Source: Oscillospiraceae bacterium (lineage in GTDB: Bacteria > Bacillota > Clostridia > Oscillospirales > UBA929). Taken from it: a DNA stretch of 55,765 nucleotides. The stretch lies in contig WRMG01000005.1 of the NCBI GenBank assembly GCA_009777255.1, forward strand, positions 1-55,765, in the 5' to 3' direction. The translations under genes and the position numbers were made by a program. The notes under the pieces were generated by a model that saw only the letters and a list, made by a program, of their open reading frames with translations, was not told the origin of the DNA and ran no database searches. Positions 11,072 through 31,342 of this stretch are shown here, piece by piece. Every line of letters begins with the position of its first letter. Position 1 is the stretch's first letter.

Positions 11072-12823
11072 TCAAATATACTTTCTGTCGTACAGCAGCG
11101 CCGCGTTCAGCACCACCATTATCGAACCGGCGTTATGCGCCAGCGCGCCGGTGATCGGGCCGAGCAGTCCGAGGATCGAAAGAGTTATTGCGATTATATT
11201 AAAGGTTATCGAAATTGTGATGTTAAAAAGGATCAGCCTGACCGTCGCGTTGGACAGCCGCTTTAAGTAAGGCAGCTTAGCTATGTCGTCGCTCATCAGC
11301 GCGATGTCGGCGGCTTCTATGGCCATATCGCTGCCCATGCTGCCCATCGCCACTCCGACGTCGGCGGTTTTCAGCGCCGGCGCGTCGTTCACGCCGTCGC
11401 CGATCATGCAAACGCCGCGCCCTTCGCTTTGCAGCGCCTGTATGCGCTCTACCTTCTGGTCGGGAAGCAGCTCGGCATAAATGTCGGCTATGCCCGCGTG
11501 CGCGGCGACAGCTTCGGCGGTCTGGCGGTTATCTCCGGTCAGCATGACTGAGGCGACCTTCATGCCGCGCAAGCTCGCAACCGTGTCCGCGCCGGACTCC
11601 CTCGGCTCGTCCGCGACCGTGATTTTTCCGGCGTATACGCCGTCAACGGTCACAACGCCGCCGCGCCCGATGGCCGCCCGTTTCCCTCCAATTTCGCCCT
11701 CGACGCCGACACCGGGGGTTGCGATAAAGTCGCGTACCTCCAGATATTCGCCGTCGTAATGCGCGACGATGGCTTTGGCGATAGGATGCTCCGAATACCG
11801 CTCCAGCGACGCGGCGATCTGCAAAACGTCGCCCTCCACATCGCTGACAACCAGATTGCCGTGCGTCAGCGTGCCGGTCTTGTCAAACGCGATTGTATCG
11901 ACCTTGCCCATCCGTTCCAGCGCCTCGCCGGATTTGATGATAACGCCGTGCTTGGCGGCCTGACCGATCGCCGCCATGATCGCCGTAGGCGTTGCGAGCG
12001 CCAGAGCGCAGGGGCAGAATACGATCGCCACCGTGACCGCTCTTATAATGTCGCCGGTGAAGAAATATGTAGCGACCGCGATCAAAAGCGCCGTCGGCAC
12101 GAGCCACACCGCCCACTTGTCGGCTACGCGCTGCAAGGGCGCCTTTTTATTCTCTGCCTCCTGTACCAGCCGTATAAGCTTTTGCAGGGAGGAGTCCTCT
12201 CCCACCTTTGTCGCCTTTATGTCGATTGAGCCGAAGCGGTTTATAGTGCCGCAGAACACGTTGTCGCCGACCGTTTTATCAATCGGCAGAGATTCGCCGG
12301 TTATGATGGATTGGTCTATCGACGTGTTGCCGGACAGTACCTCGCCGTCAACGGGCATGGCCTCGCCGGGCAGTATGCGCAAAATATCTCCCTTTTGAAT
12401 CAGCTCGACCGGTATCATCTCCTCCGTGCCGTTCCTGACGACGCGTCCCCGTTCGGGCGCCAGACCGATAAGCTGCTTTATGCCTTTTTTCGCACGTTTG
12501 ACTGTTTTCTCTTCCAAAAGCGCGCCGATAGCCATGATAAAGGCTACCTGGCCCGCCGCGAACAGCTCGCCGATGCAAATAGAGGCGATCATGGCAATCG
12601 AAATGAGCGTGGCGGAGGATATTTTATATATTCCCTTGCCGAAGACGAGCCGCCAGACGGCGTAATAAAGAAGCGGATACCCGCATAGCAGCACCGTTAC
12701 CAGCGCGGGATCCACGGGTATATGTATCTTCGCAAACATAAATATCAAACTGAGGGCAAGAAAAGCGGCGCCGATCGCCGTCGCCTTCCAGCCGGAAAGC
12801 AAATCACAAAGTTTCTTAAACAT
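11072..12823 (-). CDS. P1B-type heavy-metal-translocating ATPase without HMA domains
   Basis: The 583-residue membrane pump has the P-type signatures: TGES actuator loop, membrane CPC motif (FCPCALALATP), phosphorylation site FDKTGTLTHG, the P1B SEHPIAKAI dipeptide site and MIGDGVNDAPAL. N-terminal heavy-metal-associated domains are missing, and the sequence begins almost at the first membrane helix. CPC with an AHNAGS late helix does not clearly settle copper against zinc or cadmium. The gene lies 12 bases downstream of a CsoR-type repressor gene, which favours Cu(I) export. It has an AGGAGG ribosome site. It should pump metal out of the cytoplasm at the cost of ATP. Confidence 0.9.
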   Translation of the reverse strand: MFKKLCDLLSGWKATAIGAAFLALSLIFMFAKIHIPVDPALVTVLLCGYPLLYYAVWRLVFGKGIYKISSATLISIAMIASICIGELFAAGQVAFIMAIGALLEEKTVKRAKKGIKQLIGLAPERGRVVRNGTEEMIPVELIQKGDILRILPGEAMPVDGEVLSGNTSIDQSIITGESLPIDKTVGDNVFCGTINRFGSIDIKATKVGEDSSLQKLIRLVQEAENKKAPLQRVADKWAVWLVPTALLIAVATYFFTGDIIRAVTVAIVFCPCALALATPTAIMAAIGQAAKHGVIIKSGEALERMGKVDTIAFDKTGTLTHGNLVVSDVEGDVLQIAASLERYSEHPIAKAIVAHYDGEYLEVRDFIATPGVGVEGEIGGKRAAIGRGGVVTVDGVYAGKITVADEPRESGADTVASLRGMKVASVMLTGDNRQTAEAVAAHAGIADIYAELLPDQKVERIQALQSEGRGVCMIGDGVNDAPALKTADVGVAMGSMGSDMAIEAADIALMSDDIAKLPYLKRLSNATVRLILFNITISITFNIIAITLSILGLLGPITGALAHNAGSIMVVLNAALLYDRKYI

Positions 12824-12835
12824 ATTTATCTCCTC

Positions 12836-13111
12836 CTATACTATTCGTGAGAACTGCTCGATAGCCGACGACAGCTTTTTTATGGTATCCTCGCCGTTTC
12901 CTTCGCGGATGCCGTCCAGCACGCAGTGATGAAGATGCCCCTCTAAAATGACCTGCCCCGTTTTGTGCAGCGCGGATTTCGCCGAGCCGATTTGGATAAG
13001 TATTTCGTCACAGCTTTTATCCTCCTCGACCATTCTTATCAGGCCGCGCATCTGCCCTTCTATACGTTTCAGCCGGTTCATAACAGCTTCGGCGTTCGTA
13101 TATTTATTCAT
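12836..13111 (-). CDS. CsoR/FrmR-family metal-sensing repressor
   Basis: The 91-residue all-helical protein of the DUF156 family has a Cys34, His59, Cys63 set (SCDEIL and HLHHC). The spacing matches the copper-binding Cys-His-Cys of CsoR. These tetramers bind G-rich operators and release DNA when metal binds. It is the first gene of a two-gene unit with the P1B ATPase and probably represses its own promoter. The ATG is preceded by GGGAGG. Copper is the likely effector, but FrmR or RcnR-like sensing of other ligands cannot be excluded from these residues alone. Confidence 0.88.
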   Translation of the reverse strand: MNKYTNAEAVMNRLKRIEGQMRGLIRMVEEDKSCDEILIQIGSAKSALHKTGQVILEGHLHHCVLDGIREGNGEDTIKKLSSAIEQFSRIV

Positions 13112-13140
13112 TCTATATACCTCCCTATCGTATTCGCGGA

Positions 13141-13194
13141 CATATACTATATACCCCTATATCCTATAATAAATTATACCCAAACAGCTGTCAA
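13141..13194 (-). promoter_or_regulatory. csoR-ATPase promoter with possible CsoR operator
   Basis: On the minus strand, TTGACA (13194-13189) and TATTAT (13171-13166) have a 17-base spacer. Just downstream lies the G-tract ATATAGGGGTATATAG, resembling one half of a CsoR site and placed over the transcription start. A symmetric second half is not evident, so the operator call is weaker than the promoter call. Confidence 0.6.
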
Positions 13195-13217
13195 GTGTTT
13201 TTTAGAAAAAATTTTTA

Positions 13218-13246
13218 TTGACTTTTTTAATATAATGTTATATAAT
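13218..13246 (+). promoter_or_regulatory. Sigma-A promoter of the glutamine superoperon
   Basis: TTGACT (13218-13223) and a perfect TATAAT (13241-13246) are 17 bases apart. Transcription should start near 13253, just before the attenuator hairpins and about 65 bases before the first gene. It is divergent from the csoR promoter. Confidence 0.75.
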
Positions 13247-13254
13247 ATTTTTGT

Positions 13255-13290
13255 TGGACAAAGGCGTTCATCTTTTTGGTGGGCGCTTTT
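13255..13290 (+). promoter_or_regulatory. Attenuator: AAAGGC hexaloop hairpin versus terminator
   Basis: Hairpin 1 is TGGAC-AAAGGC-GTTCA (13255-13270): a 5-bp stem with one G-U pair and a six-base loop that has A at position 1 and G at position 4. Hairpin 2 is AAAGGCGTTCATC (13260-13272), loop TTTTT, GGTGGGCGCTTTT (13278-13290): a 13-bp stem with several G-U pairs ending in a T-run, i.e. an intrinsic terminator. The two share 13260-13270 and cannot coexist. The same layout and loop occur before the amt gene. ANTAR proteins bind hexaloops with A1/G4 and prevent terminator folding; here that is inferred. Confidence 0.65.
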
Positions 13291-13315
13291 ATACTGTTTT
13301 CAGGAGGTCGATATA

Positions 13316-14416
13316 ATGCTGCGAGAGGGTCAAATCAGGATACCGTCCGGCTGCGCCATATCGGGAATCATCAATAAATCCGGAAAACGCGTGGGCGGCG
13401 AGGCCATTATAAAGTCGATAGCCGTCATGCATGACCGCTCGAACGGATTGGGCGGCGGGTTCGCCGCATACGGGATTTATCCCGAATATAAAGACTACTA
13501 CGCTTTACATGTTTTCTACGACTCGGCGGCCTCGAAAAAGGAATGCGAGGATTTTCTCGAGAGGCATTTTGATATTATCAATCTCTCGAAGATACCGACA
13601 AGGAAGATAAAGGAGATTACGGACGAGCCGCTTATCTGGCGTTATTTTGTCACGCCGCTGCCCACCAAGCTGGCGGACAGCCAGCTTGACGAACGCGAAT
13701 TCATGGCTAAGTGCGTATTCAGGGTAAACACAAAAATCGCCGGCGCCTACGTGTTTTCCAGCGGCAAGAATATGGGAGTTTTCAAAGCGGTCGGGTTCCC
13801 CGAGGATGTGGGCAGATTTTACCGGCTGGAGGATTACGAGGGCTGGTGCTTCACGGCGCACGGGCGTTATCCTACCAACACGCCGGGCTGGTGGGGCGGC
13901 GCGCATCCGTTCGCGCTGCTCGATTATTCCGTGGTGCATAACGGTGAAATATCGTCCTATGACGCAAACAGGCGCGCTATCGAAATTTACGGATATAAAT
14001 GCACGCTGCAAACCGACACAGAGGTTATAACATATATAATAGATTTTCTGCACAGAAAAAAAGGGCTTACGTTTAAGGAAATCGCGTCCGTTATCGCCGC
14101 GCCGTTCTGGCAGACCATCGAGCGCATGGCGCCGGAGGAGAGAGAGCTGCATGAGTATCTGCGGATCGTGTTCGCGGAACAGCTTATAACCGGCCCGTTT
14201 TCCATTCTCGTCGGGTTCGAGGGCGGGCTTATGGCGTTAAACGACAGGCTGAAGCTGAGGAGCATGGTGGTCGGCGAAAAGGGCGACACCGTATATATAG
14301 CGAGCGAGGAAGCCGCTATCAGAATAATCGAGCCGGATTTGGATTCGGCATGGGCGCCCAAGGGCGGCCAGCCTGTGATCGTATGCCTGGACGGAGGTGA
14401 AGCGGAGTGCCGGTGA
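13316..14416 (+). CDS. Glutamate synthase glutaminase subunit (archaeal-type, class II GATase)
   Basis: The 366-residue protein is a class II glutamine amidotransferase domain equal to domain 1 of GltB. It should release ammonia from glutamine for glutamate synthesis. The likely nucleophile is Cys13 in PSGCAISG, so about 12 N-terminal residues would have to be removed. GWCFTAHGRYPTNT and VVHNGEISSY match the glutamine site. The start is the ATG at 13316 with AGGAGG eight bases upstream; the longer track ORF (from 12965) runs through the csoR gene and the promoter. It overlaps the FMN-domain gene by 10 bases. First gene of the superoperon. Confidence 0.88.
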   Translation: MLREGQIRIPSGCAISGIINKSGKRVGGEAIIKSIAVMHDRSNGLGGGFAAYGIYPEYKDYYALHVFYDSAASKKECEDFLERHFDIINLSKIPTRKIKEITDEPLIWRYFVTPLPTKLADSQLDEREFMAKCVFRVNTKIAGAYVFSSGKNMGVFKAVGFPEDVGRFYRLEDYEGWCFTAHGRYPTNTPGWWGGAHPFALLDYSVVHNGEISSYDANRRAIEIYGYKCTLQTDTEVITYIIDFLHRKKGLTFKEIASVIAAPFWQTIERMAPEERELHEYLRIVFAEQLITGPFSILVGFEGGLMALNDRLKLRSMVVGEKGDTVYIASEEAAIRIIEPDLDSAWAPKGGQPVIVCLDGGEAECR

Positions 14417-15912
14417 ATTTTATATATCCCGATTATGAGGTAACGCGAAACTCCGACAGATGTATCGCCTGCCGCGCCTGTGAGCGCCAATGCGCCAACG
14501 GGGCGCATGAATATCTCCCCGACGCGAACAGGGTGGTCTGCGACGACGCAAAATGCGTGAACTGCCACCGCTGCGTTTCTCTCTGCCCCACCCGCGCGCT
14601 GAAAATCGTAAAAAGCGGCAATACATACAGAGAGAATATGAACTGGAGCGGCAAGACTATAAACGAACTGTACCGGCAGGCGGGCAGCGGCGGCGTACTG
14701 CTGTCAAGCATGGGCAACCCCGAGGAATATCCTGTATATTTTGACAAGCTGCTGTTAAACGCCTCGCAGGTCACAAACCCGTCGATAGACCCGCTGCGCG
14801 AGCCTATGGAAACAAAGGTGTTCCTTGGCGCGAAGCCCCGGCAAATTGAGCGCGGCAAGGACGGGCGGATAATAAACAATCTGCCGCCGCAGCTTAATCT
14901 GTCTATGCCGGTGATGTTCTCGGCCATGAGCTACGGCTCACTGAGCTACAACGCGCACGAAAGCCTTGCGCGCGCCGCGGAGGAGCTGGGCATCCTTTAC
15001 AATACCGGCGAAGGCGGGCTGCACGAGGACTTTTATAAATACGGTAAAAACACCGTCGTACAGGTCGCGTCGGGACGTTTCGGCGTCCATCCCGAATACC
15101 TGAACAGCGGCGCGGGCGTCGAAATTAAAATGGGGCAGGGCGGCAAGCCCGGAATCGGCGGCCATCTGCCGGGGACGAAAATCATCGGCGACGTTTCGCG
15201 CACCCGAATGATTCCCGAGGGCAGCGACGCTATCTCGCCCGCACCCCACCACGACATTTACTCAATCGAGGATCTGCGGCAGCTTGTTTTTTCGCTCAAA
15301 GAGGCGACGCGCTACACAAAGCCGGTCATCGTTAAGATCGCCGCCGTCCATAACGTATCGGCCATAGCCAGCGGCATTGCCAGAAGCGGAGCCGATATAA
15401 TCGCCATCGACGGCTTCCGCGGCGGCACGGGCGCCGCTCCCACGCGTATGCGCGACCATGTGGGTATCCCTATCGAGCTTGCTCTGGCCGGAGTTGACAA
15501 GAGGCTGAGGGACGAGGGCATCCGCGATAACGTATCCATAATAGCCGGCGGCAGCATCCGTTCCAGCGCCGACATAGTAAAGGCCGTCGCTTTGGGCGCG
15601 GACTGCGTGTATATCGGCACGGCGGCGCTGCTGGCGCTCGGCTGCCACTTATGCAGAAGCTGTCACGGCGGCAGGTGCAACTGGGGTATCGCCACACAGG
15701 CGCCGGAGCTTGTAAAGCGGCTTAACCCCGAGATCGGCTATAAGCGTCTTGTCAATCTGCTGACAGCCTGGCGGCATGAGATAAAGGAGATGATGGGCGG
15801 CATGGGGATAAACTCAATCGAGAGCCTGAAAGGCAACCGGCTTATGCTCCGCGGCGTGGGGCTGAACGAAAAGGAGCTTGAAATACTGGGCGTAAAACAC
15901 GCGGGGGAATAA
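14407..15912 (+). CDS. gltB: Glutamate synthase FMN-domain subunit with N-terminal ferredoxin domain
   Basis: The 501-residue product starts with two 4Fe-4S motifs (CIACRACERQC and CVNCHRCVSLC, about residues 18-55). The FMN-binding glutamate synthase barrel follows: FSAMSYGSLS, NTGEGGLHED, IKMGQGGKPGIGG, DGFRGGTGAAPT and a cysteine cluster, CHLCRSCHGGRCNWG, for a 3Fe-4S centre. It converts 2-oxoglutarate and ammonia to glutamate. The start is GTG inside the previous gene. The glutaminase and GXGXG parts are separate genes in this cluster, as in archaeal-type enzymes. It should use electrons from the ferredoxin and FAD subunits encoded downstream. Confidence 0.93.
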   Translation: MPVNFIYPDYEVTRNSDRCIACRACERQCANGAHEYLPDANRVVCDDAKCVNCHRCVSLCPTRALKIVKSGNTYRENMNWSGKTINELYRQAGSGGVLLSSMGNPEEYPVYFDKLLLNASQVTNPSIDPLREPMETKVFLGAKPRQIERGKDGRIINNLPPQLNLSMPVMFSAMSYGSLSYNAHESLARAAEELGILYNTGEGGLHEDFYKYGKNTVVQVASGRFGVHPEYLNSGAGVEIKMGQGGKPGIGGHLPGTKIIGDVSRTRMIPEGSDAISPAPHHDIYSIEDLRQLVFSLKEATRYTKPVIVKIAAVHNVSAIASGIARSGADIIAIDGFRGGTGAAPTRMRDHVGIPIELALAGVDKRLRDEGIRDNVSIIAGGSIRSSADIVKAVALGADCVYIGTAALLALGCHLCRSCHGGRCNWGIATQAPELVKRLNPEIGYKRLVNLLTAWRHEIKEMMGGMGINSIESLKGNRLMLRGVGLNEKELEILGVKHAGE

Positions 15913-15915
15913 ACT

Positions 15916-17343
15916 ATGAGTAATATATATGAAAATCCTTTATGCAAGAGATACGTGAGCGCCGAAATGCAGTATGTCTTCTCGGACGACAACAAGTTCT
16001 CCACATGGCGCAGGCTGTGGATAGCGTTAGCCGAGAGCCAGAGAGAGCTGGGGCTTGACATAAGCGCCGGGCAGATAAACCAGATGAAGGCGCATGTAAG
16101 CGACATCAACTATGACGCGGCGGCAAAGCATGAGTCCGAGACGCGGCACGACGTCATGGCGCATATTCTGGCCTACGGCGAGCAGTGCCCCAAGGCAAAG
16201 CCCGTAATACATCTCGGCGCGACGTCATGCTATGTGGGCGACAACACGGATATTATAATACAGAGGTCCGCGCTGCTGCTTGTTAAAAAACTGCTGGTAA
16301 ACGCTTTGGCGGCGCTGTACGGTTTCGCGGAGAGGTACAAAGACCTGCCCTGTCTGGCATATACCCATTTTCAGGCGGCGCAGCCCACCACCGTCGGGAA
16401 GCGCGCGACGCTGTGGATGCAGGACATCATGTTTGACCTTGAACAGCTGGAGTTTGTGTTGAAAAACCTAAAGCTGCTCGGCTGCAAGGGTACGACGGGC
16501 ACCGGCGCCAGCTTCCTCTCGCTCTTTGACGGCGACCATGAAAAGGTAAAAACGCTGGAGCTGAAGATAGCCGGAAAGATGGGCTTTGAGAAGATATACG
16601 CCGTTTCCGGCCAGACCTATTCCAGAAAAGTCGATTACTATACGTTATCGGTGCTGTCGGGGATCGCGCAGAGCGCCTATAAATTCTCCAACGACATACG
16701 GCTGATGTCGCACATGAAAGAGGTTGACGAACCGTTTGAAACAGGCCAGATCGGGTCGAGCGCAATGGCGTATAAACGCAATCCCATGCGGAGCGAACGC
16801 ATAGCCTCGCTTGCCCGCTATGTGACGGTGGACGCGCTGAATCCCGCGCTGACGGCAAGCGCGCAGTGGCTGGAGAGGACGCTGGACGACTCGGCGAACA
16901 GGCGTATATCTATCCCCGAGGCTTTTCTCGCCGCCGACGCCATCCTGTCGCTGGTCATAAACATCGCCGGCGGGCTTACGGTCTATCCGAGTATTATCAA
17001 AAAACATCTGGATGAAGAGCTGCCCTTTATGGCGACGGAAAATATCCTGATGCGCTGCGTGAAAAAAGGCGGCGACAGACAGGCTCTGCACGAGCGTATA
17101 AGACAACATTCCGTCGAGGCGGCGAAAAGGATCAAGCTGGAGGGCAAAGAGAATGACTTGATTGCCCGTATCGCGGCGGACGCCGCGTTTGGCCTGACCG
17201 GCGGAGAGCTTCAGGAGCTGCTGCGCGCCGAATGTTTCACGGGCAGGGCAAAGGAGCAGACCGCGGAGTTTTTGACTGAGGCCAAGGCGGTGCTTGACGC
17301 GAACAGGGAGCTTTTGGGCGTTGACGTAAAAATTACGGTATAG
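15916..17343 (+). CDS. purB: Adenylosuccinate lyase
   Basis: The 475-residue fumarase/aspartase superfamily member carries the signature SSAMAYKRNPMRSE in the flexible catalytic loop, and the TSCYVGDNTD and THFQAAQPTTVGKR segments. It removes fumarate from SAICAR in purine synthesis and from adenylosuccinate to form AMP. Its length is normal. It begins 3 bases after the glutamate synthase FMN subunit and is followed 13 bases later by purA, so the two steps from IMP to AMP are made together, inserted between parts of the glutamate synthase. Confidence 0.95.
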   Translation: MSNIYENPLCKRYVSAEMQYVFSDDNKFSTWRRLWIALAESQRELGLDISAGQINQMKAHVSDINYDAAAKHESETRHDVMAHILAYGEQCPKAKPVIHLGATSCYVGDNTDIIIQRSALLLVKKLLVNALAALYGFAERYKDLPCLAYTHFQAAQPTTVGKRATLWMQDIMFDLEQLEFVLKNLKLLGCKGTTGTGASFLSLFDGDHEKVKTLELKIAGKMGFEKIYAVSGQTYSRKVDYYTLSVLSGIAQSAYKFSNDIRLMSHMKEVDEPFETGQIGSSAMAYKRNPMRSERIASLARYVTVDALNPALTASAQWLERTLDDSANRRISIPEAFLAADAILSLVINIAGGLTVYPSIIKKHLDEELPFMATENILMRCVKKGGDRQALHERIRQHSVEAAKRIKLEGKENDLIARIAADAAFGLTGGELQELLRAECFTGRAKEQTAEFLTEAKAVLDANRELLGVDVKITV

Positions 17344-17356
17344 GGAGGTTCGCATT

Positions 17357-18619
17357 ATGCTTACGGCTATAGTCGGTATCAACTGGGGCGATGAGGGCAA
17401 AGGCCGCATGGTCGATTTGCTGTCGGAGGGCTATGATATAATCTGCCGTTATCAGGGCGGCAACAACGCGGGACATACGGTTGTAAACGAGAAAGGCAAA
17501 TTTATCTTAAATCTTTTGCCGTCCGGTATCCTGCGCGACGGCGCCGTCAACGTCATGGGCGGCGGCATGGTCATTGACCTTGAACATCTCTGCGGTGAGA
17601 TCAGGACGCTGCATGAGAAGGGCGTTAAGGTCACGCCGGAAAATCTGAAGATAAGCGACAAAGCCTTTATCTGTATGCCCTATCATAAAACGCAGGATAT
17701 ATTGGAGGAGGAACGGCTCCTTGATAAAAAATACGGCTCGACAAGACGCGGCATAGCGCCCGTATACGGCGATAAATATATGAAAAAAGGGCTGCGCATG
17801 GGCGACCTGCTCGACGCCGGAACCTTAGAGCAAAAGCTGGCAGACATCGTGGAGTGGAAGAATATCACTCTCAGAGGCTACGGCGGCGAGACGGATTTAC
17901 CGGCGCTGCTTAGCTGGCTGCGTGAGTACGGGGAGCAGCTTTGCCCCTATGTCACCGACACGTCGGAATATCTTGCCGCTTCCGCCGGAAAGAAGATTTT
18001 ATTCGAGGCGCAGCTCGGCGCGCTCAGGGATATAGACTACGGCATCTACCCGTATACCACGTCCTCGCAGACGCTGGCGGCATACGCGCCCATCGGCGCG
18101 GGTATCCCGGGGCTCAAACTCGACCGCGTGATCGGGGTGATGAAAGCCTATTCCAGCTGTGTGGGAGAGGGTCCATTCGCCGTGGAGATGTCCGGCGGCG
18201 AAGCCTCCGCGCTGAGAGAGGCCGGCGCGGAATACGGCGCGGCGACAGGCAGACCGCGCAGGGTCGGCGGGTTTGACATACCGGCAAGCCGCTACGGCAT
18301 ACGGGTACAGGGCGCTGATGAGATCGCGCTGACCAAACTGGACGTGCTTTCGTATATGGAAAAAATCCCCGTCTGCGTCGCGTATGAGCTTGACGGCGTG
18401 AGGATCGACGGGTTCCCCACCGGCGACAGGCTCGCCAAAGCCAAACCGGTCTTTGAGTATTTGGACGGTTTCCGTACTGATGTATCCAAGTGCCGGAAAC
18501 CCGAGGAGCTGCCCGGCGCGGCGCTCAGGTATATCCGTTTTATCGAGGACGCCGTGAAATGCCCGATAAAATATGTGTCGGTCGGCGCCGGACGCGGCGA
18601 TTATCTTGTTATGGGGTGA
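17357..18619 (+). CDS. purA: Adenylosuccinate synthetase
   Basis: The 420-residue protein begins with the GTP/IMP loop GINWGDEGKGRMVD, and has GGNNAGHTV, the STRRGIAPVYGDK region and a late GVGRGDY-like end (VSVGAGRGDY). It joins aspartate to IMP using GTP, the first committed step to AMP. The start has GGGAGG upstream. It shares the superoperon with purB, and like many neighbours consumes a nitrogen donor derived from glutamate or aspartate. Nothing unusual was seen in length or motifs. Confidence 0.95.
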   Translation: MLTAIVGINWGDEGKGRMVDLLSEGYDIICRYQGGNNAGHTVVNEKGKFILNLLPSGILRDGAVNVMGGGMVIDLEHLCGEIRTLHEKGVKVTPENLKISDKAFICMPYHKTQDILEEERLLDKKYGSTRRGIAPVYGDKYMKKGLRMGDLLDAGTLEQKLADIVEWKNITLRGYGGETDLPALLSWLREYGEQLCPYVTDTSEYLAASAGKKILFEAQLGALRDIDYGIYPYTTSSQTLAAYAPIGAGIPGLKLDRVIGVMKAYSSCVGEGPFAVEMSGGEASALREAGAEYGAATGRPRRVGGFDIPASRYGIRVQGADEIALTKLDVLSYMEKIPVCVAYELDGVRIDGFPTGDRLAKAKPVFEYLDGFRTDVSKCRKPEELPGAALRYIRFIEDAVKCPIKYVSVGAGRGDYLVMG

Positions 18620-18624
18620 TATGT

Positions 18625-19056
18625 GTGAAGCGTGTTTATGTAAATGAGAAATGGTGTTTGGGCTGCCATCTGTGCGAGTATTACTGCGCGTTCGCGGGGA
18701 CGAACGAAAAGGATATGGCGCGCGCGCTCAAGGATATTAAAATCAATCCCAAGATAAAAATAGAGGAGCTGGACGGCGTCAGCTTCGCCGTATCCTGCCG
18801 TCACTGCCGCGAGCCGCTGTGCGTGAAAGGCTGTATCACCGGCGCCTTGACTATAAACGACGGCGTTATCACGATCAATAAGGACCGGTGCGTTAGCTGT
18901 TATACCTGCATTTTAAGCTGTCCGTTCGGGGCGGTATCCCCCTCGGACGGCGGCGCAGTCGAGAAATGCGAGCTGTGCGTTCAGACGACGGGGGGAACGC
19001 CGGCGTGCGTCAAGGGCTGTCCCAACGGCGCGATAGTGTTTGAGGAAAGGGGTTGA
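18625..19056 (+). CDS. 4Fe-4S ferredoxin-type electron transfer subunit
   Basis: The 143-residue product has several cysteine clusters: CLGCHLCEYYC, CRHCREPLCVKGC, CVSCYTCILSCPFG and a last CELC...CVKGCPNG. This is the HycB/DMSO-reductase B-like pattern able to hold up to four 4Fe-4S centres. The GTG at 18625 is chosen because the track start at 18490 lies inside purA and adds no conserved sequence. It overlaps the FAD oxidoreductase gene by 4 bases. With that partner it probably carries electrons to the glutamate synthase FMN subunit. Confidence 0.85.
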   Translation: MKRVYVNEKWCLGCHLCEYYCAFAGTNEKDMARALKDIKINPKIKIEELDGVSFAVSCRHCREPLCVKGCITGALTINDGVITINKDRCVSCYTCILSCPFGAVSPSDGGAVEKCELCVQTTGGTPACVKGCPNGAIVFEERG

Positions 19057-20294
19057 ACGGCTTGGCCGGTAACAAATACGTTATCATCGGCAACTCGGCG
19101 GCGGGTATAGGCGCGGCAGAGGGCATACGGCAGGTTGACAAGCGCGGCGAAATCACCATTATCACCGACGAGCCGCACCATACATACTCCCGTCCGCTTA
19201 TCTCCTATCTTCTGCTTGGCAAGGCAGACGAGGAGAAGATGAAATACCGCCCCGCCCGTTTTTACGCGGACAACGGATGTACGCTGATAAACGCCAGAGC
19301 GTCGCAAATCGACGCCGAAGCAAAACAGCTGGTTTTATCGGACGGACGCCGCGTGCCATATGATAAACTGCTGGTCGCGGCCGGCTCCCGCGCGTTTGTT
19401 CCGCCGTTCAAGGGTCTTGATACGGTTAAAGAAAAGTTTACCTTTATGAGCTTAGACGACGCCCGGGGACTTGACGCGGCGCTAGCGCCGGATAAGCGCG
19501 TGCTGATCGTCGGCGCGGGGTTAATAGGGCTTAAATGCGCCGAGGGGATTTTGGACAGGGTATCGCATATCACTGTAATTGATTTGGCGCCCGGGATCCT
19601 GTCCAGTATCCTTGACGAGGGCGGCGCGAAGCCGGTTCAGAGGCATCTTGAGAACAAGGGCATAGAGTTCAGGCTCTCATGCGGCGTCGAAAGTTTTGAC
19701 GGCGATACCGCGCTGCTTGACAGCGGCGAAACCGTCGGGTTTGACATCCTTGTGCTGGCGGTGGGCGTGCGCCCGAACACATCGCTGCTGGAGGGGATAG
19801 CTGATATTGACCGCGGTATAATCGTAAACGGGAGGTCCGAAACAACCGCCCACGGCATATACGCCGCCGGCGACTGCACGCAAACCCTTGATATTTCAAG
19901 CGGTCAACCAAAAATCATGGCGCTGCTGCCCAACGCCTATATGCAGGGCGAGTGCGCCGGTATCAACATGGCCGGCGGAGAAAAGGAGTTTGGCAAGGCG
20001 ATCCCCATGAACGCCGTCGGCTTCTGCGGGCTGCACGTCATAACCGCGGGCAGCTATACGGGCGATGCTTACGCCGAGGACGGCGACGGCAGCTACAAGC
20101 GCCTGTTCTACAGCGATAACGCGCTTAACGGCTTTATATTAATAGGCAATATCGAAAAGGCGGGAATCTATACAAGCCTTATCAGGGAACGCACTCCGCT
20201 TGACACTATAGATTTCGCGCTGGTCTGTAAAAAACCCGGGCTTATGGCATTCACCAAGGAAGATAGACAGTCTAAACTGGGGGAGGCGAAATAA
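19053..20294 (+). CDS. FAD-dependent NAD(P)H oxidoreductase, probable glutamate synthase reductase subunit
   Basis: The 413-residue flavoprotein has an N-terminal FAD site (YVIIGNSAAGIGAAEGIR), an NAD(P) site in the middle (VLIVGAGLIGLKCAEG) and the second FAD contact HGIYAAGDCTQ. It resembles the small nitrite reductase/rubredoxin reductase group and lacks the cysteine domain of GltD, a role the preceding ferredoxin gene could fill. The TTG at 19053 overlaps the ferredoxin stop; a second TTG at 19062 is better spaced from AGGAAAGG and may be the true start. It likely feeds electrons to glutamate synthase, inferred from position. Confidence 0.85.
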   Translation: MNGLAGNKYVIIGNSAAGIGAAEGIRQVDKRGEITIITDEPHHTYSRPLISYLLLGKADEEKMKYRPARFYADNGCTLINARASQIDAEAKQLVLSDGRRVPYDKLLVAAGSRAFVPPFKGLDTVKEKFTFMSLDDARGLDAALAPDKRVLIVGAGLIGLKCAEGILDRVSHITVIDLAPGILSSILDEGGAKPVQRHLENKGIEFRLSCGVESFDGDTALLDSGETVGFDILVLAVGVRPNTSLLEGIADIDRGIIVNGRSETTAHGIYAAGDCTQTLDISSGQPKIMALLPNAYMQGECAGINMAGGEKEFGKAIPMNAVGFCGLHVITAGSYTGDAYAEDGDGSYKRLFYSDNALNGFILIGNIEKAGIYTSLIRERTPLDTIDFALVCKKPGLMAFTKEDRQSKLGEAK

Positions 20295-20295
20295 A

Positions 20296-21012
20296 ATGGA
20301 TATATCGGCGCTTAAACTGGATTTCAAAGCGCTCAACGAACAGATCAACGCCGAGGACGGCGACGTCCGTATCAGCGATTGCTGCGGGCATAGGTTCATC
20401 GGCTGCGGCGCCAAGGGAAAGACAATCACAATAAACGGCACGCCGGGCAACGCTCTGGGCGCTTATATGGACGGCGCGGTCATCGAGGTTAACGGCAACG
20501 CTCAGGACGCCGTCGGCGACACGATGAACGACGGGGAAATTATAATCCGCGGCAGCGCGGGCGACGCGCTCGGTTACGCCATGCGCGGCGGAAGCATCTA
20601 TGTAAAAAACGACGCCGGTTACAGAACCGGCATACATATGAAGGAGTACAGGGATAAAAAGCCCGTGATCGTGATAGGCGGCAAAGCTGGCAGCTTTTTG
20701 GGAGAGTATCTGGCCGGCGGAATTATTATCGTACTCGGCATCGGCGCGGAGGACGTACCTGTCGGAAACTTTACGGGAACCGGTATGCACGGCGGGCGTA
20801 TCTTTGTCAGAACGGAAAACGAGCTTGAGAATCTGCCCGCGCAGGTGACGATAACGGTTGCCGATGAGGATGAAAAAATGGGGATCAAGGGGTATATCTC
20901 CCGCTTCGCCGGACTTTTCGGGGCTGACATCGATGCGCTCATGCGGGATAAATTCTATGTTCTCAAACCAAACGCGAAAAATCCATACAAGCAGCTGTAC
21001 ACCGTAAATTAA
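20296..21012 (+). CDS. Glutamate synthase GXGXG-domain subunit
   Basis: The 238-residue product is the C-terminal beta-helix domain of GltB made as a separate protein. It has the repeated Gly-rich rungs GTPGNALGAYMDG, GNAQDAVGDTMNDG and GSAGDALGYAMRGG, ending in a GTGMHGGRIF segment. In full-length enzymes this domain sits between the glutaminase and FMN sites and holds the ammonia path. It begins one base after the FAD subunit gene, completing the five-gene glutamate synthase set interrupted by purB and purA. Confidence 0.9.
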   Translation: MDISALKLDFKALNEQINAEDGDVRISDCCGHRFIGCGAKGKTITINGTPGNALGAYMDGAVIEVNGNAQDAVGDTMNDGEIIIRGSAGDALGYAMRGGSIYVKNDAGYRTGIHMKEYRDKKPVIVIGGKAGSFLGEYLAGGIIIVLGIGAEDVPVGNFTGTGMHGGRIFVRTENELENLPAQVTITVADEDEKMGIKGYISRFAGLFGADIDALMRDKFYVLKPNAKNPYKQLYTVN

Positions 21013-21028
21013 TGGAAGGAGCGCGGCT

Positions 21029-22843
21029 ATGTGCGGGATTATCGGTTACGTCGGGGAGGAAAACGCCGTCCCGATTATTGTAGAGGGGCTTAAAAAGCTG
21101 GAGTATCGGGGATACGACTCAGCGGGGGTCGCGGTCTGCGGCCAGAACGGCTTTTTCGACGTGATAAAACAAAAGGGCCGTCTGACGGCGCTGGAGGCGC
21201 GTCTTAGCGAAAACCCGATCGCCGGTAATATGGGGATAGGGCACACCAGGTGGGCCACGCACGGCGAGCCGTCCGATACAAATTCCCACCCGCATGTGGG
21301 AAGCCAAAATAAAATCGCCGTCGTCCACAACGGCATCATAGAGAATTACAGACAGTTAAAAGAGCGCTTGGAACAAAAAGGTATAGCGTTTGCCTCGCAG
21401 ACCGACAGCGAGGTCATAGCGCAGCTCGCGGAGTATTATTACTCCGGCGACCTGCTCGATACGGTCATTAAGGTGGCCAACGCTCTTGAAGGCTCCTACG
21501 CGCTGGGCATAATGTGCCTTGACGAGCCGGATATGCTTGTCGCCGTCAAGAAAGACAACCCGCTCATCATCGGCGTGTCCGGTCACGGGCAGTTCATCGC
21601 GTCCGACGTCCCCGCCGTGCTAAAGCACACCAACAAGGTCTGTTATCTTAACGATAAGGAAATCGCGGTGCTGACAAAAGGCGGCGCGCGATTTTTCAAC
21701 ATGGACAGGGAGCCGCTTAGCAAGACGCCGGAAACCGTCACATGGGATATAGACAGCGCCGAAAAGGGCGGCTTTGAGCATTTTATGCTCAAAGAGATTA
21801 TGGAACAGCCCAAAGTGCTGCGGGACACTATCCAATCGGTTCATAGCGGCGGCAATAAAGAGGTAATCGAAAGCCTTGAGGCCGCCCGTTTCGATAAGCT
21901 CGTCATCACGGCCTGCGGGTCGGCGTATAACGCCGGAGTTGTGGCAAAATATGTTTTTGAGCGGCTTTGCAGGCTCTCCGTCGAGGTGGAGCTTGCCAGC
22001 GAGTTCCGCTATAAGGACGCGATCATCAGTGATAAAACGCTTGTCATTCTGGTCAGCCAGTCGGGAGAAACCGCCGATACCATCGCCGCCATGCGGGAGG
22101 CGAAGGCAAAGGGCGCCTTTACTCTGGGCATTGTCAACGTGGTGGGCAGCACCATCGCCAAGGAAGCGGAAGTCTGCCTGTTCACGGCGGCGGGACCGGA
22201 AATCGCCGTGGCGACGACAAAAGTATTCTCGGCCCAGCTTGTGCTGCTGTATATACTGGCGGTCCGGTTCGCCGCCGCGCTGGGCAAGATGACGGAAGAG
22301 GCGGAACGCGGGCTGTCGGCGGAGATCGCCGCTCTGCCCGGCAAGGCGGAGGAGATACTCTCCCGTATTGATTCGATCCAAAAATACGCCTCGACCTGCA
22401 TCGGCTATAAAAGCATTTTCTTCATCGGCAGAAATATCGACTACGCCATCGCGCTGGAGGGGTCGCTTAAACTCAAGGAAATATCCTATATCCACTCCGA
22501 GGCGTATGCCGGTGGCGAGCTGAAGCACGGCCCCATATCGCTGGTCGAGGAGGAGGACACGCTGGTCGTCGCGCTCTCAAACTGCGGGCGTCTGCGCGGC
22601 AAAATAATGAGCAACGTGGAGCAGGTGGTGAGCAGGGGCGCGAAAGTTTTGCTGATTGGTTCTTGCCAAGACGCCGGTCAAAGTGGTATAATCTCATATA
22701 TCGGCCTGCCGGAAGTGCCGGAGCTGTTTTCCCCGTCGCTGTCGGTGATTGTCATGCAGCTGTTCAGCTACTATGTGGCCGCCAACAAGGGGCTTGATAT
22801 AGATAAACCCCGGAACTTAGCCAAAAGCGTTACCGTAGAATAG
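21029..22843 (+). CDS. glmS: Glutamine-fructose-6-phosphate aminotransferase (isomerizing)
   Basis: The 604-residue enzyme has Cys2 as the N-terminal nucleophile (MCGIIGYVG), a class II glutaminase domain to about 230 and two SIS domains with SQSGETADT and the C-terminal DKPRNLAKSVTVE. It makes glucosamine-6-phosphate from fructose-6-phosphate and glutamine for peptidoglycan. It starts 16 bases after the previous gene with a GGAAGGAG site. There is no room for the glmS ribozyme, which in many Firmicutes precedes this gene, so control would have to come from the operon leader. Confidence 0.96.
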   Translation: MCGIIGYVGEENAVPIIVEGLKKLEYRGYDSAGVAVCGQNGFFDVIKQKGRLTALEARLSENPIAGNMGIGHTRWATHGEPSDTNSHPHVGSQNKIAVVHNGIIENYRQLKERLEQKGIAFASQTDSEVIAQLAEYYYSGDLLDTVIKVANALEGSYALGIMCLDEPDMLVAVKKDNPLIIGVSGHGQFIASDVPAVLKHTNKVCYLNDKEIAVLTKGGARFFNMDREPLSKTPETVTWDIDSAEKGGFEHFMLKEIMEQPKVLRDTIQSVHSGGNKEVIESLEAARFDKLVITACGSAYNAGVVAKYVFERLCRLSVEVELASEFRYKDAIISDKTLVILVSQSGETADTIAAMREAKAKGAFTLGIVNVVGSTIAKEAEVCLFTAAGPEIAVATTKVFSAQLVLLYILAVRFAAALGKMTEEAERGLSAEIAALPGKAEEILSRIDSIQKYASTCIGYKSIFFIGRNIDYAIALEGSLKLKEISYIHSEAYAGGELKHGPISLVEEEDTLVVALSNCGRLRGKIMSNVEQVVSRGAKVLLIGSCQDAGQSGIISYIGLPEVPELFSPSLSVIVMQLFSYYVAANKGLDIDKPRNLAKSVTVE

Positions 22844-22854: not shown

Positions 22855-24171
22855 ATGAACGCCACCGCGGGCGAGGTATTGGAATTTGTAAAGGAGAACG
22901 ACGTTAAGTTTATCCGGCTCGGGTTTTGCGACCTGTTCGGGCTTCAAAAGAATATTTCCATCCCGTCGGACGATTTGGAATCCGCGTTTGAGGACGGGGT
23001 GTACTTTGACGCCCACTCTATCCGCGGCTTCCGTGACGTGACCGAGTCCGATCTGCTGCTGTTCCCCGATCCCGCGACGCTTACGGTTCTGCCGTGGCGC
23101 CCGGGACCGGGCAGGGTCGCGCGTTTTTACTGCGACATCAAAACGCCGGACAGGCGCGCGTTTATACTTGACAGCAGGTATATACTAAGGCTTGTAGTCA
23201 AGCGGTGCGCCGATATGGGCTTTGTTTGCAGAATCGGCGCTGACTGCGAGTTTTATCTGTTCAGGGCCGGCGAGGACGGCGAGCCGACGCGCGCAACCCT
23301 TGACAGGGGCGGTTATCTGGATATTTCGCCGTTGGACAGGGGCGAGGATATACGCAGGGAGATATGCCTGACTCTGGATGAAATGGGGCTGAAGCCCGAG
23401 CTTTCGCGCCATGAGAAGGGCCCCGGGCAGAACGAGATCGACTTTAAGTTCTCCGACGCGCTCTCCTGCGCCGACAACCTCCTGACCTTCAAGTCGGTCG
23501 TCAAGGCGATCGCCGCGCGCAACGGGCTGTTCGCGTCGTTTATGCCCAAGCCCATACCAAACGCGCCCGGCAGCGGGCTGCACTTAAACATCTCGCTTGC
23601 GAAAAACGGGCGCAATGTTTTTAAGAGCGACGGCGAACATTCGGCGGCGGCGGAGAGCTTTATCGCGGGGATACTTCAAAGAACGCCTGAAATATCACTG
23701 TTTCTCAATCCCATCGCCAATTCATACGAGCGCTTCGGCGCTTATGAGGCGCCGAAATATGTGTCATGGTCGCATCAGAACCGCTCGCAGCTTATACGGA
23801 TCCCCGCGGCGACCGGCGAAAAGGTCAGGATGGAGCTGCGTTCGCCCGACCCGTCTGTTAACCCCTATCTCGCGTTCGCGCTGATACTCGCGGCTGGGCT
23901 TGAGGGGATCGAAAAGGGCCGGCCCCTGCCGCCCGCCGTTGACGCGGACCTATACACCGCGGACGAAAGCGTGACCAAAACACTTGCGCCGCTGCCGGAC
24001 AGCCTCGATACGTCGATCAGGCTTGCGGAAAACAGCGAGTTTGTCAAAGGAGTTACCGGCAAAGAGCTGCTTGGCAAATACCTTGCGATCAAAAAAGCCG
24101 AAGCCGCTGATTACGACGCCTCCGCAGACAAGGCGGCGTTTTGTGAGGAACGCTATTTCAGCAGTATATAG
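22855..24171 (+). CDS. glnA: Glutamine synthetase, type I
   Basis: The 438-residue protein has the GSI order: N-terminal beta-grasp with LGFCDLFGLQKNISIP, metal-binding ADCEFYLF, NEIDFKFSDAL, FMPKPIPNAPGSGLHLN, and the C-terminal LRSPDPSVNPYLAFAL. It ligates ammonia to glutamate with ATP. Its length matches the GSI-alpha group common in Firmicutes. It is preceded by glmS (11-base gap, AGGAGG site) and followed by the ANTAR regulator gene. A second, type III, glutamine synthetase lies 16 kb downstream. Feedback regulation cannot be judged from sequence alone. Confidence 0.94.
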   Translation: MNATAGEVLEFVKENDVKFIRLGFCDLFGLQKNISIPSDDLESAFEDGVYFDAHSIRGFRDVTESDLLLFPDPATLTVLPWRPGPGRVARFYCDIKTPDRRAFILDSRYILRLVVKRCADMGFVCRIGADCEFYLFRAGEDGEPTRATLDRGGYLDISPLDRGEDIRREICLTLDEMGLKPELSRHEKGPGQNEIDFKFSDALSCADNLLTFKSVVKAIAARNGLFASFMPKPIPNAPGSGLHLNISLAKNGRNVFKSDGEHSAAAESFIAGILQRTPEISLFLNPIANSYERFGAYEAPKYVSWSHQNRSQLIRIPAATGEKVRMELRSPDPSVNPYLAFALILAAGLEGIEKGRPLPPAVDADLYTADESVTKTLAPLPDSLDTSIRLAENSEFVKGVTGKELLGKYLAIKKAEAADYDASADKAAFCEERYFSSI

Positions 24172-24201: not shown

Positions 24202-24774
24202 GTGATGGACAGCGTTCTAATCGTTTCCTGTTCCGGTAAAGGGACGGACTTCTTCTCCGAGCTGCTGAACTCGGCCGGCTTTCATCATATCGCCGTAACG
24301 CAATCCTGCGGCGAGGCGCGAAGGCTTTTACTCACCCGCGATTACGACCTGGTTGTCGTTAACGCCCCGCTGCGGGACGAATCGGGAGAAAATCTCTCGC
24401 GGCAGATAGCGTCCAGAGGAATTTCGCAAGCTATGCTGGTGGTAAAGAGCGAGCATTTCGAGGCGGTTTCCGCGGTTTGCGAGGACGACGGCGTTCTGAC
24501 GGTCGCCAAACCGGTAAACAGGGCGGTTTTCTGGTCCGCTTTGAAGCTGGCCGGGGCGTCGCAAAACAGACTGAGGCGCGTACAGGCCGAAAACGCGAAG
24601 CTGAAGCAGAAAATCGAGGATATACGGGTCGTTGACCGGGCTAAATGCCTTTTAATATCGCACATGAGCATGAGCGAAAACGACGCGCACAGGTTTATCG
24701 AGAAACAGGCGATGGACATGCGCTTGGGTAAAAAGGAAATAGCGGAAAGGATATTGAAAACATATGAAGCGTGA
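24202..24774 (+). CDS. ANTAR-domain antiterminator with degenerate receiver
   Basis: The 190-residue protein has an N-terminal receiver-like domain (about 1-118), a coiled-coil linker rich in Lys/Glu (about 125-145) and a C-terminal ANTAR domain (about 140-190; LLISHMSMSENDAHRFIEKQ, then AMDMRLGKKEIAERIL). ANTAR domains bind RNA hexaloop hairpins and block terminators. The receiver lacks the usual phospho-acceptor: LVVVNAPLRD has Asn54 where Asp is expected, and the acidic pair after strand 1 is also lost (VLIVSCSG). It should not be phosphorylated in the usual way. A GTG (24202) or ATG (24205) start is possible; AGGAGG favours the ATG. Its place after glnA points to nitrogen control. Confidence 0.9.
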   Translation: MMDSVLIVSCSGKGTDFFSELLNSAGFHHIAVTQSCGEARRLLLTRDYDLVVVNAPLRDESGENLSRQIASRGISQAMLVVKSEHFEAVSAVCEDDGVLTVAKPVNRAVFWSALKLAGASQNRLRRVQAENAKLKQKIEDIRVVDRAKCLLISHMSMSENDAHRFIEKQAMDMRLGKKEIAERILKTYEA

Positions 24775-24822: not shown

Positions 24823-25890
24823 ATGACGGCGTATCTGCTTTTAGAGGACGGCACTGTCTTTGAGGGGAGTTCTTTCGGCGCGCAGGGCAGCGTTACGGGA
24901 GAAATTGTATTCTCCACCGGCATGACCGGCTATTTGGAAACGCTGACCGATCCCAGCTATTACGGGCAAATCATTCTTCAAACCTTTCCGCTTATCGGCA
25001 ACTACGGCGTTATCCCCTCCGATTTCGAGAGCGGCGCCGTCGCGGCAAAAGCCTATATCGTAAAGCATCCGTGCCAAAACCCCTCCAACTTCCGAAGCGA
25101 GGGGGCTCTTGAGTCTTTCCTGAAGGAACGCGGCGTCGTCGGGCTTTACGGGATAGATACGCGCGCGCTTACTAAGCTAATACGCGAAAACGGCGTTATG
25201 AACGGGAAGATAACGCTCTCCCCGCCGACCGAAGCCGACCGCGCCGAAGTGCGGGCCCACCGTATCGGCGGCGCCGTCGCCGCGGTATCGTCAAAGCTCC
25301 CGTCCCCGCCGCTCAAGGGTTCGGACGCGGCGGCGCGCCGCCGCGTGGCGCTGATGGATTTCGGCGCGAAACGCGGCATCGCCGAGGCTCTGACTGCGCG
25401 CGGCTGCGAGGTGTGGGTGTTCCCGCACGACACCCCGGCTGGAGAGATCACGAAGATAAATCCCAGCGGCATTGTGCTTTCAAACGGGCCCGGCGACCCC
25501 GCAGACCCCGCGAATAACGGGATAGTCGAAACTCTCCGCGAGCTGAACCGGACCGGTATACCGATTTTCGGCATCTGCCTGGGGCATCAGCTTTTGGCGC
25601 TGGCAAACGGATATAAAACCAAAAAGCTCAAATTCGGACACAGGGGCGCCAACCAGCCTGTCAGGGACACGCGGACGGGACGCGTATATATCACCAGCCA
25701 AAACCACGGCTACACGGTCATCGCGGATAACGGCTCGTTCGTCAACGTTAACGACGGCACCTGCGAGGGTATGGATTACGGCGTGTCGTTTTCCGTGCAG
25801 TTTCATCCCGAGGCCCGGGGCGGGCCGCTCGACACGGCGTTTTTGTTTGAAATCTTTATGGAGAGGATGAACGCGTATGCCGCTGAATAA
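24823..25890 (+). CDS. carA: Carbamoyl-phosphate synthase small subunit
   Basis: The 355-residue subunit has an N-terminal CPSase_sm domain (MTAYLLLEDGTVFEG, then GMTGYLETLTDPSYYGQI) and a C-terminal class I glutaminase with FGICLGHQLLAL (nucleophile Cys), NHGYTV and FHPEA. It splits glutamine and passes ammonia to CarB for carbamoyl phosphate, used in pyrimidine and arginine synthesis. It overlaps carB by 14 bases. The length is slightly below average but all catalytic motifs are present. Confidence 0.95.
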   Translation: MTAYLLLEDGTVFEGSSFGAQGSVTGEIVFSTGMTGYLETLTDPSYYGQIILQTFPLIGNYGVIPSDFESGAVAAKAYIVKHPCQNPSNFRSEGALESFLKERGVVGLYGIDTRALTKLIRENGVMNGKITLSPPTEADRAEVRAHRIGGAVAAVSSKLPSPPLKGSDAAARRRVALMDFGAKRGIAEALTARGCEVWVFPHDTPAGEITKINPSGIVLSNGPGDPADPANNGIVETLRELNRTGIPIFGICLGHQLLALANGYKTKKLKFGHRGANQPVRDTRTGRVYITSQNHGYTVIADNGSFVNVNDGTCEGMDYGVSFSVQFHPEARGGPLDTAFLFEIFMERMNAYAAE

Positions 25891-28800
25891 GAACATCAAA
25901 AAAACTTTGGTCATCGGCTCCGGCCCGATCGTTATAGGGCAGGCGGCGGAGTTTGATTACGCGGGTACGCAGGCGTGCCGCGTTCTCCGTGAGGATAATA
26001 TCGAGATCGTGCTTGTCAACTCCAACCCCGCCACAATAATGACTGACGAAAACATCGCGGATAAAATATATATCGAGCCTCTGACACTGACGACGATCAA
26101 ACGCATAATCGAAAAAGAGCGCCCCGACAGTATCCTGTCCGGACTGGGAGGCCAGACGGGGCTGACGCGCTGTATGCAGCTTGCCAAAGAGGGCTTTTTA
26201 GAGAAAATGGGCGTACAGCTGCTGGGTTCCTCGCCGGCGACCATTGACAGAGCTGAGGACCGGCAGCTCTTTAAGGAAACCATGCTCGCCGCCGGACAGC
26301 CCTGCGTCCCGTCGGCAATAGCCACCGACGTCGGGGCTGCGGTCGAATTCGCGGAGAGTATCGGTTATCCGGTAATAGTGCGTCCGGCGTTCACCTTGGG
26401 CGGCGCCGGAGGCGGTATCGCCGGCGACGAGGCAAAGCTGCGCGAGATCGCGGCCGGCGGCATAAAGCTGTCGCCTATCAATCAGATACTCATCGAAAAA
26501 TCTATCGCCGGCTGGAAAGAGATCGAGTTTGAGGTGATGCGCGACGGCGCGGACAACGTGATAACCGTCTGCTCCATGGAAAATTTCGATCCGGTAGGCG
26601 TGCATACCGGCGACAGCATTGTCATAGCGCCCGCCGTCACGCTGGCCGACAAGGAATATCAAATGCTCAGGAAAGCGTCCTTGGATATAATCCGGGCGCT
26701 CGGCGTCGAGGGCGGCTGCAACGTCCAGCTCGCGCTGCACCCGCACAGCTTTGAATACGCCGTTATAGAGGTCAACCCGCGCGTGTCGCGCTCCTCGGCA
26801 CTGGCCAGCAAGGCTACGGGTTATCCGATCGCTAAAGTGGCTACTAAAATCGCCATCGGCTACACCCTGGACGAGATCACCAACGCCGTTACGGGAACCA
26901 CCTTCGCCGCCTTTGAACCGGCGCTTGACTATGTGGCGGTCAAATTCCCCAAGTGGCCGTTCGACAAATTCGTCTACGCCAACAGGGATCTGGGCACTCA
27001 AATGAAGGCGACCGGCGAGGTCATGGCGATAGCCGACACGTTTGAGGCGGCGCTGCTCAAAGCGGTGCGCGGCGCGGAGCTGGGGCTTGACAGCCTTGAC
27101 CTTCCCCGTCTGATGAGCAAAAGCGACGCCGAAATACGCGCGCTTCTTGATAACGTGACCGATGAGCGGCTGTTCGTGCTGTATGAGGCCGTCAAACGCG
27201 GCGTAAGCATTGACGAGCTTTATGATATAACAAAGGTTGACCGCTGGTTCCTGCACGGGCTTGCTAATATAGCAAAAGACAATCTGCCGTCCAAGCAGCT
27301 CGTATATAAGATGGTTGACACCTGCGGCGGCGAGTTCGAGGCGAAAACCCCCTACTTTTACTCCATACAAAACGGGACGGAGGACGAAGCCCTGCCGTTT
27401 ATCAAAAAAAGCGAAAAAAGCCGTATAGTCGTGCTGGGCAGCGGGCCGATCCGTATCGGCCAGGGTATTGAGTTCGACTACGCCTGCGTGCATTGCGTGT
27501 GGACGCTGAGGGAGCTTGGGTATGAGGTAATCGTCATAAATAACAACCCCGAAACGGTGTCAACGGATTTCGACACCGCCGACAGGCTGTACTTCGAGCC
27601 GCTGCATATCGGCGATGTGATGAGCGTTATAGAGAACGAAAAACCCATAGGCGTTATAGTGGCCTTCGGCGGCGGCACGGCGATCAAGCTGACGAAAACG
27701 CTGCGCGAGCGCGGCGTGAATATCATCGGCACCCCCGCGGACAGCATAGACATCTGCGAGGACAGGGGGCGTTTCGACGATTTGCTGGAACAGCTCCATA
27801 TCAAACGCCCCAAGGGTTACGGCGTGCTGACGGAAGCGGAGGCGCTCGGCGCCGCCGACAGGCTCGGCTATCCCGTGCTCATGCGCCCGTCTTACGTGCT
27901 GGGCGGACAGAATATGATTATCGCGTTCTCCGAAGCGGACATACGCGAGTATATGGAAATAATCCTGCGGCAGAAACAGGAAAACCCCGTGCTGATCGAC
28001 AAGTATCTGGAGGGCATGGAGATCGAGGTTGACGCTATCTGCGACGGCAGGGATGTCCTGATTCCCGGCGTAATGGAGCATATCGAGCGCACCGGCGTCC
28101 ACTCGGGCGACAGTATCGCCGTATATCCGGCTATAAATATCGACGACAATCTGACCGGAAAGATTTTTGACGTGACGCGAAAGCTCTGTATGGCGCTGAA
28201 TGTCAAAGGGCTGGTCAACATCCAGTACGTCCTGTATGAAAACGAACTGTATGTGATCGAGGTCAACCCCCGCGCGTCGCGTACCGTGCCGTATATCAGC
28301 AAGGTCACCGGCGTCTCCATGTGCGAGCTGGCCACAAGGATAAGCGTCGGCGAAACGCTGGAGGAGCTGGGATACACGTCAGGTGTAGCGCGCATACCGC
28401 CGTATACGGCGGTCAAGGTGCCGGTATTCTCTTTTGAAAAGCTGGTCGGTCTGGATACCCATTTAGGGCCCGAGATGAAATCCACGGGAGAGGTTCTGGG
28501 GCTCGGAAAAAACATCGAAGAGGCGCTTTACAAGGGGCTTGTCGCCGCGGGCTATACCATGCGCAAGAGCGGCGGGGTCCTCATTACTGTGCGCGACGGC
28601 GATAAAGCGGAAATCGCGGACGTCGCTAAAAAATTCGTCCGGCGCGGGTTTTCATTGTACGCGACCCGAGGCACCGCACGGTTTTTGGAGGGGAAGGGGT
28701 TCTCGGTCCAAACCGTGGAGAAAATCCATGACTGCGCCTTAAACAACACCGAAACGATGATGGAGAGCGGAAACATCAGCTATGTCGTCTGCACATCTGA

Positions 28801-31335: not shown

Positions 31336-31342
31336 CTGTACC

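Follow-up and report, generated by a model that had tools for sequence, protein, structure and literature searches.

Introduction

The closest described counterparts of the element reported here are the dual-hexaloop ANTAR RNAs of the EutV/eutP, NasR/nasF and AmiR/amiE systems (Ramesh et al., 2012, PMC3369931). In these RNAs six-base loops with A at position 1 and G at position 4 (A1/G4) are carried on short stems in front of nitrogen genes, and an intrinsic terminator shares sequence with the loop and the 3′ arm. Antitermination by EutV requires both hexaloops (PMC3369931; PMC8934654), for which a linker range of 2–25 nt has been given (PMC8164766). Searches for new targets have demanded two hairpins (PMC3369931; PMC8164766) and therefore would not report a class with a single hexaloop. 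The EutV structure makes one hexaloop the binding unit, and the existence of single sites was posed as a question in the same paper (PMC8934654), which is the only one in the literature we searched where “single hexaloop” occurs together with ANTAR.

Glutamate synthase genes of Desulfotomaculum reducens are already among the predicted ANTAR targets (PMC3369931), and PMC4676874 places a NitR-type ANTAR protein beside glutamine synthetase in Clostridium acetobutylicum, as cited there, and in C. thermocellum (Clo1313_2030). Like the locus described below, clostridial NitR combines an ANTAR protein that has a receiver-like domain with a position inside a GS-GOGAT gene cluster; it differs in that PMC4676874 cites a nitR antiterminator together with an antisense RNA. 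We found no single-hexaloop leader or regulon in the literature searched.

Here we analyse a window of 55,765 nt from an Oscillospiraceae bacterium (contig WRMG01000005.1) and the corresponding loci of its relatives. A switch with one hexaloop recurs across many Clostridia in front of glutamine and glutamate genes, and it looks like ANTAR control with one loop where all known systems use two. The accepted model is that ANTAR antitermination needs two hexaloops, whereas this large, conserved natural set has one per terminator; the question raised in PMC8934654 therefore becomes directly testable. The element is also a candidate for nitrogen control in numerous Clostridia of the gut and the environment, and it explains how a single switch could govern a glutamine superoperon of 24 kb.

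Results

Anatomy of the Superoperon Leader

The first-pass annotation of the window described a hairpin, TGGAC-AAAGGC-GTTCA, sharing 11 bases with a 13-bp terminator, and the leader reads as described (Table 1). The hairpin begins 8 nt past the TATAAT box of a promoter whose 17-bp spacing is common to nearly all orthologous gltB leaders. Its A1/G4 hexaloop, AAAGGC, is carried on a 5-bp stem, where ANTAR-target RNAs have at least 3 bp, and the terminator occupies the loop and the 3′ arm, giving the overlap (13260–13270) that is also typical of ANTAR-target RNAs. This terminator is the only terminator-like site within 13100–13500. Transcription starts, here and below, are predicted from the promoter position (7 nt after the −10 box).

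Table 1. Features of the superoperon and of the second attenuator in the window.
Feature	Position	Strand	Remarks
Sigma-70-type promoter TTGACT-17-TATAAT	13218–13246	+	11/12 consensus matches; −35 13218–13223, −10 13241–13246
Single hexaloop hairpin TGGAC-AAAGGC-GTTCA, proposed ANTAR-bound antiterminator	13255–13270	+	loop 13260–13265
Intrinsic terminator, 13-bp stem, loop TTTTT	13260–13290	+	
Glutamate synthase glutaminase (GATase) subunit, first gene of the superoperon	13316–14416	+	
gltB FMN domain, purB, purA, Fer4, FAD reductase, gltB GXGXG, glmS	14407–22843	+	gaps ≤16 nt
glnA, glutamine synthetase type I	22855–24171	+	
ANTAR protein, proposed regulator: pseudo-receiver (Asp to Asn), coiled coil, ANTAR domain	24205–24774	+	
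carA, carB(-dapF ORF), guaA, pyrG, gatC-like ORF, gatA, gatB, aspS-like	24823–37891	+	
Promoter of the second attenuator, TTGACA-17-TATCAT	37952–37980	+	
Second single hexaloop hairpin acggc-AAAGGC-gctgt, recoded stem	37992–38007	+	loop 37997–38002
Terminator overlapping the second hexaloop, 16-bp stem	37997–38032	+	z −5.61
amtB-PII: ammonium transporter fused to P-II domain	38044–39849	+	
glnN, type III glutamine synthetase	39886–41985	+	
Terminator-like hairpin 3′ of glnN, proposed transcript end	42009–42034	+	

Folded each alone, the hexaloop hairpin has an energy of −2.7 kcal/mol and the terminator one of −15.7 (leader MFE −22.3, z −2.16). As the terminator is far more stable, we take it to be the default structure; the weakness of the hairpin on its own is what would be expected if a protein must stabilise it. 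The window contains two instances of a promoter combined with the pattern AANGRC, more than the 0.08 expected from shuffles. With Rfam 15 we obtained no family match in the window, and none at the leaders of relatives up to an E-value of 5. The U-tract of the window terminator is short (CUUUUAUACUGUUUU) and weaker than those of relatives, and the hexaloop lies 18 nt from the terminator end, closer than in any other leader of the gltB set (median of the set 43). This spacing leaves little time for a protein to bind, which makes the binding kinetics the most interesting point to measure.

The genes behind the leader are closely packed from 13316 to 37891, ending with an aspartyl-type tRNA synthetase. 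gltB is encoded in separate pieces, and a gatC-like ORF from about 32952 fills the 116 nt separating pyrG from gatA. The large subunit of carbamoyl-phosphate synthase and a diaminopimelate epimerase domain share one reading frame at 25877–29815; in relatives dapF is a separate gene downstream of that for the ANTAR protein.

Conservation and Covariation of the Hairpin

Orthologous leaders were gathered through the neighbouring gltB GATase gene, independently of the RNA, and sites were selected on the promoter, the loop, two bases of the 3′ arm and the terminator, with the 5′ arm left out of the selection. Promoter, single hexaloop and overlapping terminator are present in 66 of the 105 leaders. 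The first-pass annotation had expected stem pairing and the loop residues A1 and G4 to be kept in relatives. Pairing is kept, as all 54 distinct leader sequences form the four pairs next to the loop, and so is A1 in large part (A in 51, G in 3); G4, like loop position 2, belonged to the search anchor, and its constancy is not an independent result. The gltB leaders L013 and L029 have the loop GATGGT, with G at position 1, and their genomes encode proteins with two ANTAR domain matches per reading frame (L057 G003:C45:10203-10499 and L065 G015:C135:3332-3640).

The gltB leaders of close relatives alone were uninformative about covariation because the stem hardly varies there. Strong compensatory change emerged once paralogous sites were included, sampling was widened and an arm-free pattern, in which both stem arms are free and only the first 3′ base is fixed, was run over all collected loci. 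A stem of at least 4 bp forms in 159 of 161 terminator-overlapping matches to this pattern. The stems fall into the families GAGC/GTTC, GAAC/GTTC, AGGC/GTCT, CAGC/GCTG, AAAC/GTTT and GGAC/GTCC around a constant AANGGC loop; some of the loci had originally been collected with earlier hairpin models, and the CAGC/GCTG family is in none of those models. Pair 4 forms in 58/60 (shuffled mean 29.5) and pair 5 in 49/60 (26.5), and pairs 2–5 all lie clearly above shuffles, which ignore kinship. The number of separate stem families is a stronger argument for the hairpin than the excess over shuffles.

The arm-free pattern also recovered a second attenuator in the window (37992–38007, before amtB-PII and glnN), which is absent from the first-pass annotation and was missed by the covariance models R1 and R2, both too bound to the stem sequence. 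Many R2 matches with E >1e-3 fell inside coding sequence, where neither a promoter nor a terminator accompanies them, and were dismissed as chance. The same applied to some stronger R2 matches (L152, L173, L181, L184, L185), and five further arm-free matches in the genome of the window were rejected since the hairpin does not form.

The 5′ arm contains an ATG in many gltB leaders, and in relatives the element reads ATGAGCAAAGGCGTTCAT, a possible leader peptide M-S-K-G-V-H that would point to translational attenuation. We reject this idea because the ATG is not conserved: the window has TTGGAC and other leaders ACGAAC or TTGAAC in its place, and no in-frame ATG is present in stems of the glnN, carA and amtB types. 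As the conserved feature is the pairing and not the reading frame, a role as leader peptide is hardly credible.

Outside the Clostridia, the spirochaete Sphaerochaeta halotolerans (L257) has a gltB leader with a GGAC/GTCC stem as well as an ANTAR gene, suggesting transfer of the whole unit.

One Hexaloop per Terminator

The predicted transcript ahead of the loop has a median length of about 6 nt (range 2–12), and thus no P1 hairpin fits upstream. Downstream, a second A1/G4 hexaloop lies within 25 nt in 9 of the 66 leaders, which is chance level (7.3 in shuffles). The pair of hairpins with a 2–25 nt linker that defines dual-hexaloop ANTAR-target RNAs is therefore not found, and the single hexaloop remarked on in the first-pass annotation turns out to hold across relatives. 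Unlike the dual-hexaloop RNAs, the element has one hexaloop with a stem that starts at about +1, leaving no room for P1, and its C-G closing pair and AANGGC loop are conserved.

Since EutV requires both hexaloops (PMC3369931; PMC8934654), the element could instead be a canonical dual-site target for which an unrecognised RNA element or a second transcript supplies the other loop. This would agree with the many glnN leaders that have two modules in series, in several relatives (L017, L018, L020, L021, L023) as complete hexaloop-terminator modules. These tandem modules each have their own terminator, however, and at 63–97 nt apart they are outside the described linker range (PMC8164766). Together with the few nucleotides ahead of the loop and the chance-level count downstream, this makes a hidden second hexaloop unlikely.

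The ANTAR Protein and Its Link to the Hairpin

An ANTAR protein is encoded within the operon, as had been proposed: the product of 24205–24774 matches PF03861 with 52.6 bits (curated cut-off 27.3, E 3.8e-14). It is the only ANTAR protein found in this genome, which is about 64% complete. The AlphaFold model (pLDDT 93.6) consists of a receiver-like domain, a long coiled-coil helix and a three-helix ANTAR bundle. Its best full-length structural match is EutV bound to RNA (6ww6, TM 0.81); AmiR and Rv1626 were also matched. The residues by which EutV contacts RNA, with roles taken from PMC8934654, are kept at K149, E160, M172 and R175 and altered at K147 (to R), Y164 (to H, as in AmiR) and N173 (to D, as in Rv1626), whereas R168 (to E) and R177 (to G) are not kept. 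In the receiver the phosphoacceptor Asp is Asn in the window and in nearly all relatives, and the acidic pair is missing, which is not the make-up of a phosphorylation-controlled response regulator.

The hairpin and the ANTAR gene occur together. Of the 44 gltB loci with the hairpin, 38 contain an ANTAR gene, compared to 3 of the 12 loci without it (p = 1e-4, kinship ignored); some of these hairpin assignments were made by eye, and a strict set (29/33) gives the same result. At the level of the order, an ANTAR protein is encoded in 50 of the 54 genomes that have a strong hairpin, compared to 196/297 (66%) overall (p = 1e-6, kinship ignored). There are exceptions both ways: convincing sites precede purA or purB-purA in G021, G100 and G221, genomes in which no ANTAR gene was found, and L263 and L291 have an ANTAR gene but no gltB hairpin.

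The few genomes with a purA or purB element in which no ANTAR gene was detected, and the position of the 5′ arm exactly at the predicted start site, would fit a switch that is real but has another driver, either start-site choice trimming the 5′ arm or a different RNA-binding protein. Such a driver would not account for the retention of A1 in the loop while the stems are recoded, nor for how strongly the element is associated with an ANTAR gene of its own operon; several of the leaders that have no hairpin are without an ANTAR gene, too. We consider a driver other than ANTAR very unlikely.

The ANTAR gene adjoins glnA in 37 to 40 of the 44 loci. In the AmiR-AmiC and NasT-NasS systems, a ligand-binding partner sequesters the ANTAR protein. 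The window protein resembles these in its receiver-like domain without the usual phosphorylation residues, in the adjacent gene for a putative partner and in its structural match to AmiR; it differs in that this neighbour is glutamine synthetase and not a periplasmic-binding-protein-like sensor. By analogy with AmiC-AmiR and NasS-NasT, the linkage suggests that glutamine synthetase may be the partner of the ANTAR protein.

Genes Behind the Element

In relatives of the order the element precedes gltB, glnN, glnA-ANTAR, carAB, purA or purB-purA and pyrG, and also purF, asnB, gdhA, argG/argGH, gatC and dapF. Glutamine or glutamate is a product or substrate of almost all of them. Most of these genes are located, in the window, in one operon behind one site, and the second site serves amtB-PII and glnN. 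The arrangement gives the impression of a scattered regulon brought together in two transcription units. A dapF-dapL-dapA locus that carries the hexaloop attenuator has a lysine riboswitch as well (L112:1231-1404), and at another locus the argG attenuator is closely preceded by a tmRNA gene (L120:47-396).

Proposed Mechanism

On the basis of the leader anatomy and the EutV, NasR and AmiR systems, we infer default termination relieved by ANTAR antitermination. RNA polymerase would initiate essentially at the hexaloop stem, and by default the nascent RNA would adopt the more stable terminator, so that transcription ends before gltB. Upon nitrogen or glutamine shortage, the presumed signal, the ANTAR protein encoded behind glnA would bind the AAAGGC hexaloop and keep 13260–13270 in the hairpin; the terminator would then be blocked and the superoperon from gltB to aspS transcribed. 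The second copy of the hexaloop would govern amtB-PII and glnN in the same manner. In this scheme a single hexaloop would suffice, and the protein would activate by antitermination.

ANTAR-dependent antitermination of the glutamine regulon through a single 5′-terminal hexaloop is, in our judgement, probable, and the first-pass annotation's interpretation of ANTAR control is supported, with binding by this protein and its effect on termination as predicted steps. Points that count against it are the need of EutV for two hexaloops, the 18-nt spacing, the short U-tract, the sites of G021, G100 and G221, where no ANTAR gene was found, and the changes R168 to E and R177 to G. A broader and rather speculative extension is that the element represents a widespread class of ANTAR targets with a single hexaloop at the 5′ end. 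GlnA might then act as the sensor, capturing or releasing a phosphorylation-independent ANTAR protein according to glutamine, and one small protein might set the whole glutamine regulon, here fused into two transcription units.

Additional Features

Divergent to the superoperon, a unit on the minus strand (11072–13111) with its own promoter at 13194–13166 consists of a small ORF (12836–13111) that by eye resembles CsoR and, after it, a P-type ATPase of the heavy-metal type, which matches Pfam E1-E2_ATPase. Elsewhere in the same genome we observed a repeat at three or more places (L304, L305 and L306, on C23, C35 and C48) that runs TTGACA..TATAAT..GGCAGTAAGGGCGGCGCC.., is followed by a terminator-like hairpin downstream, and is distinct from the hexaloop.
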